From Candidatus Kapaibacterium sp. (GTDB lineage: Bacteria > Bacteroidota > Ignavibacteria > Kapaibacteriales > UBA4661): a stretch of 34,624 nt of DNA. Numbering within the stretch: position 1 is the first letter of the stretch; every line of letters begins with the position of its first letter. Both the position numbers and the translations under genes were made by a program. Shown here piece after piece: positions 21,720 to 30,118 of this stretch. The DNA lies in assembly GCA_025358765.1 (NCBI GenBank), contig JANYIG010000210.1, positions 1 to 34,624 of the forward strand, written 5' to 3'. The notes beneath the pieces were generated by a model. The model did no database searches, was not told where the DNA came from, and saw nothing but the letters and a program-made list of their open reading frames with translations.

Positions 21720-21964
21720 GGCTTGACAATCAATTTGGTAGCGTGTGGGAAAACACTGACAGCACTATAAGATACAAAATGCTTTATCATCTATCAAATT
21801 ACCGTTGAACTTTGTTGTCGAAACAATTCCTTCAAAGCATTGATATTTCTCCTTTGCAGGGGACAGTCTTCAAAAAGATTTGCTTTTGCGTTCGAAAAAT
21901 CGTACCTTGAAAAAGACATTCAAACACGACATTTTCTATTGTAATTTTATTTAGCATTTCCACA
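21720..21964. other. Divergent intergenic region
   Basis: About 245 bases separate the SRPBCC gene and the Cys-rich leader. It should hold the promoters of both units. It is AT-rich near the right end (TGTAATTTTATTT at 21940-21952), which could hold a -10/-7 element giving a very short untranslated leader. No convincing promoter pair or coding frame is seen. Confidence 0.4.
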
Positions 21965-22081
21965 ATGAACGCTTCGCTTTACACGGCTCAATCTTCACAA
22001 CGCGCTTGCACCACGCCTTGCGGCGTTCCTTGCACGATGCAAATGTGTATGATGTGCTGCGCCCGCGTACTGCGAAGGTGA
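21965..22081 (+). CDS. Cys/Met-rich leader peptide
   Basis: A 38-codon frame starting at ATG 21965 and ending at TGA 22079-22081. The second half holds six Cys and four Met in 18 codons: CTTPCGVPC then TMQMCMMCCARV. There is no signal peptide and no ribosome binding site, and the AT-rich element just upstream would suit a short or leaderless transcript. It is followed directly by an alternative-pairing segment and a terminator, then by a peroxiredoxin gene. This is how amino-acid-responsive attenuation leaders are built. It could instead be a small metal-binding protein. Coding is inferred from the composition and context only. Confidence 0.6.
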   Translation: MNASLYTAQSSQRACTTPCGVPCTMQMCMMCCARVLRR

Positions 22082-22123
22082 GAATGCTGCTTATACATGA
22101 CGCTCAAAAACAAGCCATTCACC
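22077..22123 (+). promoter_or_regulatory. Candidate antiterminator pairing
   Basis: GGTGAGAATGCTGCTT (22077-22092), which overlaps the leader stop codon, can pair with the left arm of the terminator, AAGCCATTCACC (22112-22123). This gives 12 base pairs with two 2-base bulges. A ribosome at the stop codon would cover the first segment and leave the terminator to form. One stalled at the TGC TGC codons (22055-22060) would leave it free. Worked out by eye; no folding energies were computed. Confidence 0.5.
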
Positions 22124-22154
22124 TTCATCGGTGAGTGGCTTGTTTCTTTTTATC
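22108..22154 (+). terminator. Attenuator terminator upstream of the peroxiredoxin gene
   Basis: AACAAGCCATTCACC pairs with GGTGAGTGGCTTGTT (one G-U pair) around TTCATC, followed by TCTTTTTAT. It lies 26 bases after the leader stop codon and ~80 bases before the peroxiredoxin start. Because nothing but the short leader frame precedes it on this strand, it acts on the leader transcript rather than ending a full gene. Confidence 0.88.
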
Positions 22155-22233
22155 CCGTTTCAAATTGTTTATAACCCGCACAGTTACTTTTTGACGTGCT
22201 TTTTTGTTTCATTATTTTCAAGGAGTTTTTTCT

Positions 22234-22887
22234 ATGAGTTCACAAACCGATATCATCTTGCGTTTAGGCGACCTCGCGCCGAATTTCACCGCCCAAACGA
22301 CGGAAGGTTCAATTGATTTCCATCAATGGCTCGGAACGGGTTGGGGAGTTTTTTTTTCGCATCCCGCCGACTATACTCCTGTTTGCACGACGGAACTCGG
22401 CGTTGTGGCAAAGTACAAAGCGGAGTTCGACAAACGCAATGTCAAGGTGATCGCCCTCAGTGTTGACTCGCTCGATGAGCACAAGAGCTGGATTCACGAC
22501 ATCAACGAGACGCAAAACACGACGGTCAATTTCCCGCTTATTGCCGACCCAGACCGTCAGATTTCACTTCTTTACGGGCTGATTCACCCGAATGCGTCGG
22601 AAAATGCGACCGTCCGCTCGGTGTTTGTCATTGGAGCCGACAAAAAAATCAAACTCATCATCACGTACCCCGCTTCGACAGGTCGCAATTTCGAGGAGCT
22701 TTTGCGTGTGATTGATTCGCTACAGCTCACCGCAAACTACGGCGTAGCAACGCCCGCAAACTGGAAAAATGGAGAAGATGTGGTTATCGTACCGGCAGTG
22801 AAGGATGAGGAAATTCCGGCACGATTCCCCAAAGGTGCAACGTTCGTGAAGCCATATCTGCGAATCACACCACAACCGAATCTTTAA
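22234..22887 (+). CDS. Peroxiredoxin, Prx6 (1-Cys) type
   Basis: 217 residues, the normal length for Prx6. It reduces peroxides with a peroxidatic cysteine in the cytoplasm. The active site is SHPADYTPVCTTELG with C51, and the supporting Arg is in VRSVFVIG. C51 is the only cysteine, so resolution must come from an outside thiol. The extended C-terminal domain (NWKNGEDVVIVPAV, RFPKGATFVKPYLR) is typical of this class. The start at 22234 has AAGGAG eight bases upstream; the frame extends to 22204 without support. It sits behind the Cys-rich leader and terminator, and is followed 33 bases later by DUF4395. Confidence 0.95.
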   Translation: MSSQTDIILRLGDLAPNFTAQTTEGSIDFHQWLGTGWGVFFSHPADYTPVCTTELGVVAKYKAEFDKRNVKVIALSVDSLDEHKSWIHDINETQNTTVNFPLIADPDRQISLLYGLIHPNASENATVRSVFVIGADKKIKLIITYPASTGRNFEELLRVIDSLQLTANYGVATPANWKNGEDVVIVPAVKDEEIPARFPKGATFVKPYLRITPQPNL

Positions 22888-22920: not shown

Positions 22921-23373
22921 ATGGCTTCCGAAGGGAATAATTATACCCCGCAACCAAACGATATTCCTGTACCCATTGTTACGTTCAGCCGATGGTTGTA
23001 TGCCCTCACGCTTGGCGGGGCGTTTGTTGTGCAACAACCGCTCATTACGACTGCTTTGCTGCTCATTGTGCTGGTGTCGGTGTTTGGCGGAAAGCGATGG
23101 AATCTTATCAGTCGTATCGGGCGAATACTCTTCTCCAAGCAGATTGCCGTTGGGAAACGCGAAGATTATCGGCTCATTCGCTTTAACAATCTGATTGTTG
23201 TGGCGCTACTGGTTATTGCTCAAGTGGGGTTCGTTGTGAATGCTTCGGCTGTTGCATGGGTGTCCGTCATTGCCATTGTTGTGGCGAGCAGCCTTGCGCT
23301 GGCAGGTTTTTGTGTAGGGTGCGTGTTGTATTATCAGTTTAAACTTCAGCGCTTCCGGCTTTTGGGGCAATAA
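22921..23373 (+). CDS. DUF4395 membrane protein
   Basis: 150 residues with about four hydrophobic segments in two hairpins. The C-terminal GFCVGCVLYYQF with its CxxC is typical of DUF4395. The family often occurs near thioredoxin-like, sulfurtransferase or other sulfur-metabolism genes, but its function is not known. The ATG at 22921 has AAAGGA nine bases upstream. It is evidently co-transcribed with the peroxiredoxin, so the leader attenuator would control it too. The membrane CxxC could take part in thiol exchange; this is only inference. Confidence 0.85.
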   Translation: MASEGNNYTPQPNDIPVPIVTFSRWLYALTLGGAFVVQQPLITTALLLIVLVSVFGGKRWNLISRIGRILFSKQIAVGKREDYRLIRFNNLIVVALLVIAQVGFVVNASAVAWVSVIAIVVASSLALAGFCVGCVLYYQFKLQRFRLLGQ

Positions 23374-28175: not shown

Positions 28176-28493
28176 TTAGTATTTCGTGAGCGACGGGTCT
28201 ATTTCATCCGCGTACGCAAGGATACCGCCAACGAGATTGTACAAATTCGTAAAGCCGTGTTCTTGTTCAAGCTCTTCAATCGCTGTTCCACTTCGTTTAC
28301 CGCTGCGGCAATAGACAATCACTTTTTTGTCGCGCGAGAATTTATCAGCATTGGCAGGCACAACTCCAAGCGGAATGCTTTCGCCGCCAATTGTGGCAAT
28401 ATCACGTTCGTAGGGTTCGCGCACATCAATCAGTTGAAAATCCTCATTTGCGTCAATCATCGCTTTGAGGTCTCGGACGGTTATTTCTTGCAT
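28176..28493 (-). CDS. Single-domain rhodanese-like protein
   Basis: 105 residues from the ATG at 28493; the frame reaches a TTG at 28508, which is less likely. The fold is a single rhodanese domain: FQLIDVREPYERDIATI, then the active-site loop YCRSGKRSG with C62, and NLVGGILAY near the end. Such proteins move sulfane sulfur to thiol acceptors. The loop CRSGKRS is typical of GlpE/PspE-like small sulfurtransferases. It stands alone, downstream of a repeat-rich gap shared with metZ. Confidence 0.92.
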   Translation of the reverse strand: MQEITVRDLKAMIDANEDFQLIDVREPYERDIATIGGESIPLGVVPANADKFSRDKKVIVYCRSGKRSGTAIEELEQEHGFTNLYNLVGGILAYADEIDPSLTKY

Positions 28494-28933: not shown

Positions 28934-30118
28934 ATGGAACCATTGCATCAATTCGATAATTTTGAAACGAATGCTATTCGCATCCAAAACGAACGCGGCG
29001 AACGCGAACATTCCACACCGATTTATTTCACGTCGAGCTTTGTGTTCGAGGACGCAGAGCAAGCACGGGCAATGTTCGCAGACGAGATTCCGGGCAATAT
29101 TTATACGCGATTCTCGAACCCGAACAACAACGAGTTAGTGGAAAAGCTCTGCGCTTTAGAAGGCACGGAGGACGGTATTGCAACGGCTTCGGGCATGGCG
29201 GCGATGTTCGTGAGTATGGCTTCATTGCTTCGTTCTGGCGATCACGTTCTGGCATCACGCTCGCTATTTGGCTCTACGCACCAGATTCTGACGGTGCTGT
29301 TGCCACGATGGGGAATTACCCACACATATGTGGACATCACGAATCCTGACGAGTGGGAATCGAACATTCAGCCGAATACGAAGATGATTTTCGTGGAAAC
29401 GCCGTCCAATCCTGCGTTGGATGTGATTGACCTCGAATGGCTTGGCAAACTCGCCCGCAAACACAACGTGATTCTAAACGTGGATAATTGTTTTGCAACG
29501 CCGTATCTACAAAACCCCGCAAAGTACGGCGCACACTTGGTCACACACTCGGCAACAAAATTTATTGATGGGCAGGGACGGACGATTGGTGGTGCGATTT
29601 TAGGAACAAAGGAACTCATCAAAGAAGTACGTTTTTTTGCGCGGCACACCGGACCGTCGCTCAGTCCTTTTAATGCTTGGATTCTCTCGAAAAGCCTCGA
29701 AACGCTTGCCGTCCGCATGGAACGCCACTGTCAGAGTGCTCTTGCGATTGCTACGCGATTGCAAGGCAATCCCAGCATTACTACGGTGAAATATCCGTTT
29801 CTCGCTTCGCATCCGCAGCACGACTTGGCACGGCGGCAAATGCGCTTAGGCGGCGGTGTGGTGACATTTGAACTTAAAGGCGGTATTGAACAAGGGCGGA
29901 AATTCTTGAATGCACTGCAAATGCTCTCGCACACGGCAAATTTGGGCGACACGCGCACTATTGCCACGCACCCAGCATCCACAACACACTCAAAACTGAA
30001 AGAAGAAGAACGGATGGCGGTCGGCATCACGCCCGGCTTGATTCGTGTATCGGTAGGATTGGAACATGTGGATGATATTTTTCGCGATATTGAGCAAGCG
30101 ATTGAAGCCTCGAGATGA
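28934..30118 (+). CDS. metZ: O-succinylhomoserine sulfhydrylase
   Basis: 394 residues, the normal size for the Cys/Met-metabolism PLP enzymes. It makes homocysteine from O-succinylhomoserine and sulfide, in the direct-sulfuration route to methionine. PLP-binding Lys is K209 in SATKFIDGQG. Other marks are YTRFSNPNNNELVEKLCALEG, ETPSNPALDVIDL, NVDNCFATPYLQNP and the C-terminal SVGLEHVDDI. MetZ is favoured over cystathionine gamma-synthase or O-acetylhomoserine sulfhydrylase from its overall sequence (TETNAIRIQ-like N-terminus, GQGRTIGGAILG). There is no ribosome binding site. I found no SAM riboswitch upstream, only the miniature element. Confidence 0.9.
   Translation: MEPLHQFDNFETNAIRIQNERGEREHSTPIYFTSSFVFEDAEQARAMFADEIPGNIYTRFSNPNNNELVEKLCALEGTEDGIATASGMAAMFVSMASLLRSGDHVLASRSLFGSTHQILTVLLPRWGITHTYVDITNPDEWESNIQPNTKMIFVETPSNPALDVIDLEWLGKLARKHNVILNVDNCFATPYLQNPAKYGAHLVTHSATKFIDGQGRTIGGAILGTKELIKEVRFFARHTGPSLSPFNAWILSKSLETLAVRMERHCQSALAIATRLQGNPSITTVKYPFLASHPQHDLARRQMRLGGGVVTFELKGGIEQGRKFLNALQMLSHTANLGDTRTIATHPASTTHSKLKEEERMAVGITPGLIRVSVGLEHVDDIFRDIEQAIEASR

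Follow-up and report, generated by a model that had tools for sequence, protein, structure and literature searches.

Bacterial methionine regulation is usually credited to riboswitches (the SAM classes), T-boxes or repressors, and our search of the open-access literature found no leader attenuator built on Met codons. Among ribosome-dependent devices, the attenuators of the trp, his, thr and ilv type have a leader ORF carrying regulatory codons, at the end of which an antiterminator competes with a terminator. Actinobacterial Cys leaders, which precede cys operons and cbs, have Cys codons in runs towards the end of a small reading frame and lack terminator hairpins, and an involvement of Rho has been suggested (PMC1262725, PMC4633059). 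The uORFC-8-2 motif of Rhodobacterales places tandem Cys codons in a short ORF, together with an intrinsic terminator, before cysS (PMC8632094). A survey of premature terminators yielded no Met or Cys leader when searched for them (PMC2965389).

The locus described here lies in a window of 34,624 nt (contig JANYIG010000210.1, Candidatus Kapaibacterium sp.), where a short Met/Cys-rich ORF and a terminator precede the operon of a Prx6-type peroxiredoxin (prx6). Its layout is that of the trp/his/thr/ilv-type attenuators, and in the window's family the targets of the device likewise include genes that make the amino acids encoded in the leader; it differs from them in coding for two sulfur amino acids, Met and Cys, in counting a peroxiredoxin operon and a tRNA-Cys gene among its targets, and in that no conserved protector hairpin was identified. 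Like the actinobacterial leaders it precedes sulfur genes and has its Cys codons in runs close to the stop of a small reading frame, but it forms a complete intrinsic attenuator, has Met mixed in and belongs to an unrelated lineage. With uORFC-8-2 it has tandem Cys codons and an intrinsic terminator in common, but the target of that motif is a cysteinyl-tRNA synthetase in alphaproteobacteria, and the description consulted reports no Met run (PMC8632094). The SAM-I riboswitch (RF00162) is found in front of metY, one of the leaders' target genes, throughout most of the class and, unlike the leaders, binds SAM directly; it is absent from the tested metY upstream regions of the window's order, where the leaders stand instead. 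We propose, with a probability of roughly 0.85, that the prx6 leader is a ribosome-mediated transcription attenuator that would read the supply of Met and Cys, and that the prx6 operon was probably recruited to a device mainly serving methionine-synthesis genes. Neither a Met/Cys leader attenuator nor any such leader before a peroxiredoxin gene was found in the open-access literature, and its novelty is provisional.

Parts of the proposed attenuator and its predicted switching

An initial annotation had described a leader, a terminator and an antiterminator before the peroxiredoxin gene, an anatomy borne out by the ORF listing, a terminator scan and folding. The parts and the genes discussed below are as follows.

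21879..21909, + strand: promoter-like site TTTG-N20-TACCTTG (Bacteroidota type) 5' of the leader; consensus match 9/9, 20-nt spacer
21965..22081, + strand: leader ORF, 38 aa, Met/Cys-rich, from the ORF listing; frame and Met/Cys richness kept in six relatives
22037..22060, + strand: regulatory codons ATG CAA ATG TGT ATG ATG TGC TGC (MQMCMMCC)
22074..22086, + strand: antiterminator 5' strand GAAGGTGAGAATG, overlapping the stop codon (22079-22081); pairs with 22116-22126
22108..22123, + strand: terminator left arm, also most of the antiterminator 3' strand (22116-22126); AAGCCATTCxxCTTC conserved
22130..22151, + strand: terminator right arm and T tract, from the terminator scan and folding
22234..22887, + strand: 1-Cys peroxiredoxin, Prx6 type (Pfam AhpC-TSA 2.1e-29, 1-cysPrx_C 2.8e-9)
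22921..23373, + strand: DUF4395 membrane protein with a conserved CxGC (Pfam 7.6e-20)
28176..28493, - strand: rhodanese (ORF; Pfam 5e-13)
28934..30118, + strand: MetZ-like O-succinylhomoserine sulfhydrylase (PF01053 2.5e-130)

The leader peptide, MNASLYTAQSSQRACTTPCGVPCTMQMCMMCCARVLRR, starts at an ATG, stops at the TGA at 22079-22081 and contains six Cys and four non-initiator Met, all within residues 15-32 of its 38 aa; these counts agree with the initial annotation, whose placement of all ten in the second half of the frame fails for C15 and C19. Comparable Met/Cys richness occurs in 3 of the 3414 short ORFs on both strands of 1.08 Mb (the window plus other prx6 loci), and the three include the window leader itself and one leader of the distant prx6 locus L088; such richness exceeds chance expectation. 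The promoter-like site 5' of the leader recurs 5' of the prx leaders in G003, G005, G007, G008 and G009, and its type, like the gene content and the relatives, is that of Bacteroidota.

The terminator (22108-22145) is a 16-pair stem with 7 G-C pairs, a 6-nt loop and a T tract, at -25.4 kcal/mol when folded alone, and the 291-nt leader region as a whole folds more stably than chance would give (z = -4.3). The segment over the stop codon does pair with the terminator left arm, as had been claimed for it: together with its extension GCTT (22089-22092) it forms 15 bp at -14.8 kcal/mol. The antiterminator is much the weaker of the two structures, so that the switch must depend on which of them forms first and not on their equilibrium. 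The window's Cys-Cys codons end 14 nt before the antiterminator, and the stop codon lies within it. A candidate protector pairing, GCATTTCCAC with GTGAGAATGC, can be drawn in the window and was not seen on reading the relatives' sequences; across the window and these sequences, no conserved protector hairpin was identified, an element that would hold the operon silent in the absence of leader translation. Neither a SAM riboswitch nor any other Rfam family matched in the window or in L115, L138, L172, L177, L215 and L238, and the same sequences contain no T-box match at the gathering threshold.

From the parts, conservation, paralogous copies and target genes seen in the sequence, we infer promoter use, translation, stalling, termination and a starvation response of the following form. 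RNA polymerase would start at 21879-21909, and a ribosome would follow it through the leader ORF. With charged tRNA-Cys or tRNA-Met scarce, the ribosome would stall in MQMCMMCC, short of 22074, and GAAGGTGAGAATG would be free to pair with the terminator left arm once this is made; no terminator would then form, and prx6-DUF4395 would be transcribed. With both charged tRNAs plentiful, the ribosome would reach the stop codon and cover the antiterminator, and transcription would end near 22150. The device in the window would be one copy of a Met/Cys leader with metY and metY-metX as its main targets, to which the prx6 operon was presumably recruited.

Conservation of the device and its copies before methionine genes

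Leader, antiterminator and terminator are kept in all seven prx6 loci of the family (the window's genome and six relatives). The relatives' leaders are Met/Cys-rich, as in MTNSAFHSNLASSMMMMNACMMPQMCCMMMCCYNPHRR, and most prx and metY leaders have a QMC(x)MM(M)CC core in common, outside which the peptides vary freely; the reading frame and its Met/Cys codons are conserved, where a lack of conservation of the frame or its Cys codons had been named as one observation that would speak against the device. The other, a main promoter after the terminator, is not borne out either, as the conserved promoter-like site lies on the near side of the leader. In the antiterminator 5' strand, 12 of 13 positions are invariant in the seven prx loci despite differences in frame and stop position: the stop codon precedes the antiterminator in G001, whereas the G007 ORF continues across the antiterminator in a different frame. 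The CTTC of the terminator left arm is likewise invariant (7/7), though it falls in the terminator loop of most relatives, as expected if CTTC must pair with the antiterminator GAAG. In six of the seven prx leaders the first of the tandem Cys codons begins 16-20 nt ahead of the antiterminator; in G001 a lone Cys codon occurs at 19 nt. A ribosome stalled at this distance would just leave the antiterminator open. This ribosome geometry, with the tandem Cys codons at that distance and the stop codon inside the antiterminator, fits the attenuation put forward in the initial annotation; the device is kept in relatives and repeated before metY.

A covariance model built from the prx attenuators and run against the family found further copies of the device. 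They precede 8/8 complete metY genes (O-acetylhomoserine sulfhydrylase) of the family, most with the core MMQMCMMMCC(C), and their antiterminator is changed but still pairing. The lower-scoring matches in the family and the order were mostly ordinary terminators without a Met/Cys ORF and were set aside. Because a single joint alignment (A3) misaligned the antiterminators, the prx and metY sets were counted apart. In the metY set, antiterminator pairs are retained by way of U-G, C-G and U-A, with 63/63 cells paired vs 24-60% when the strands are slid. The terminator shows one two-sided change in the prx set and one in the metY set; most pairs are constant, which leaves little covariation in either set, and the antiterminator did not exceed the shuffle control.

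The window's own genome carries a second copy of the leader (L215, G000:C20:15259-18355), with the peptide MNQNRFNIAPATPMMAGMTVKQTMMQMCMMMCCMCMDAHGRETDS and a weaker antiterminator, followed by a metY remnant, a DUF1684 gene and metX. The remnant comprises residues 390-435 only (the last ~46 codons, 83% identical) and is either a real deletion or an assembly error. The remaining PF01053 genes of the family that were checked showed no Met/Cys leader.

In L140 (G007:C1:106400-109700), a Met/Cys leader and terminator at 427-738 are immediately followed by a divergent tRNA-Cys gene, the second of this genome, and by the gene of a TonB-dependent receptor. This leader would control the supply of the very tRNA that it reads. 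Among the family genomes read, no canonical tRNA-Cys gene has such a leader; only this second tRNA-Cys of G007 does.

The window Prx6 is 77-79% identical to those of the other family members, and both Cys and the Gly of the DUF4395 CxGC motif are invariant in six proteins. In all six relatives prx6-DUF4395 is followed by the gene for a MetZ-like sulfhydrylase, with a rhodanese gene between them, third in the operon, in G003, G008 and G009 (operon order in L165, L166 and L170); in G005, G007 and G001 the ORF listing did not resolve one. The relatives' prx genes sit in a sulfur operon and do not form an oxidative-stress operon of their own. In the window the operon has shrunk to prx6-DUF4395, the only two genes that directly follow the leader. 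Its rhodanese gene is displaced and, with the MetZ-like gene, lies 5-7 kb from the prx operon (~6 kb for the MetZ-like gene, which scores 9e-152 with the NCBIfam O-succinylhomoserine sulfhydrylase models, just under their cut-offs); no Met/Cys leader was found 5' of either displaced gene. In G007 and G008, a family 2A encapsulin gene and a cysteine-desulfurase-like gene come after the prx-MetZ operon. L165 3439-6669 and L169 3469-6723 (reverse complement) hold this pair of genes 3' of the prx-MetZ operon, and the cysteine-desulfurase-like protein is extended by a long N-terminal part.

The probable signal read by the leader

Because the paralogous leaders control methionine- and cysteine-synthesis genes and the regulatory codons specify Met and Cys together, the likeliest signal is a shortage of sulfur amino acids. 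The coded amino acids are those made by the controlled genes, namely metY, the metY remnant-DUF1684-metX cluster and, in the relatives' prx operon, the gene of the MetZ-like enzyme.

The initial annotation had called the device a cysteine-responsive attenuator. Its identification as an attenuator stands; a signal confined to cysteine, with the Met codons incidental, appears unlikely, as the regulatory codons are Met as well as Cys. Tandem Cys codons are indeed the last regulatory codons before the antiterminator in six of the seven prx leaders, the distant leader of L034 has CCCC with a single neighbouring Met before cysH, and a second tRNA-Cys gene follows one G007 leader; against these observations, Met is enriched as much as Cys, the family's metY leaders contain 7-11 Met each, the G001 prx leader has eight Met and only two Cys, and several class-level metY leaders (L256, L285) are almost all Met.

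The peptide might instead act as a nascent chain that senses oxidants or a soft metal, e.g., Cu(I), in the exit tunnel, with ribosome stalling or release as the outcome, so that the operon would answer oxidative or metal stress in place of amino-acid supply. No residues are more prone to oxidation or to binding Cu(I) than Met and Cys, copper-responsive Cys-containing upstream peptides are known in proteobacteria, and the downstream gene here encodes a peroxidase; however, Met and Cys change freely in spacing and order (CCCC, CCMMCC, MCMCMCM, MMINMMML) although their total stays high, which is unlike a defined binding site and suits codon reading better than a ligand-binding peptide, and it is metY and metX, and no metal or stress genes, that follow the paralogous leaders. 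We therefore consider such a sensor improbable. The oxidative or thiol-stress signal earlier suggested for the window leader is unproven. It is very doubtful, too, that the mixed leader is a two-input sensor of amino-acid supply and redox state (the latter through nascent-chain oxidation or metal binding) that would join sulfur assimilation to peroxide defence.

Least credible is an ordinary terminator of an upstream transcript beside a chance ORF, with the prx6 promoter 3' of the terminator, where a promoter-like match does occur at 22191-22218: we reject this match as the main start because it is weak and not conserved, whereas a conserved promoter-like site precedes the leader; the ORF, antiterminator and terminator are kept in seven genomes, no more than 45-88 nt separate the terminator from the start of prx6 in the six measured loci, and the upstream gene of the window is on the other strand, so that nothing else needs this terminator.

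An attenuator reading Met and Cys supply would place Prx6, the uncharacterised DUF4395 protein and, in two genomes, the family 2A encapsulin and the cysteine-desulfurase-like gene inside a sulfur-amino-acid regulon, and this placement offers a testable clue to the function of all four.

Distribution at distant prx6 loci and across the class

Among the GTDB prx6 loci having upstream sequence, 2 of 78 show a Cys-rich leader followed by a terminator. One is L034, whose next gene is cysH; the other is L088, where two Met/Cys leader-terminator units stand in series before prx6 (2638-2950) and the next genes encode a sulfite reductase and a tetrapyrrole methylase. A third locus, L087, satisfies only the leader rule; it lacks a terminator and is regarded as a chance case. 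At phylum level 0/27 prx6 loci pass the rule, and these two counts rule out prx6 leaders as a general feature of Bacteroidota. CysH, sulfite reductase or MetZ genes were found beside other prx6 loci only in L034, L088 and L099; the link between sulfur genes and prx6 is supported but not proven, because the query genes came partly from those loci.

Class-level leader counts were made with a simple Met/Cys ORF rule on a single sample of 294 genomes; shuffled controls of the metY upstream regions never passed this rule. A Met/Cys-rich leader precedes metY in 8/8 family cases, in 6/6 from the other families of the order and in 20/60 from the remainder of the class. A SAM riboswitch occurs in 40 of the 66 metY upstream regions that the class has beyond the family, none of the 40 in the window's order, and in the rest of the class the leader is present in 9/40 regions with the riboswitch and in 11/20 without it. 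Counted among these 11 are L292 and L293, in which Cys runs (CCRCCCSC, CCCCCCSC) lie within longer, 54-codon ORFs ~420 nt before metY, without a SAM riboswitch, and which are less certain members. Leader-terminator pairs stand in tandem before metY in L238, L252, L285 and L290, and in L251, L263 and L277 the leader lies upstream of a SAM riboswitch. Within one bacterial class, Met/Cys leaders replace, double or precede SAM-I riboswitches at the same gene, which provides a natural series in which to study how one regulator comes to supplant another. A different conserved small ORF, approximately NLHLFYACRPVxxHLSxYFxGNFLCC, lies between the SAM riboswitch and metY in L240, L246, L248, L249, L250 and L254.
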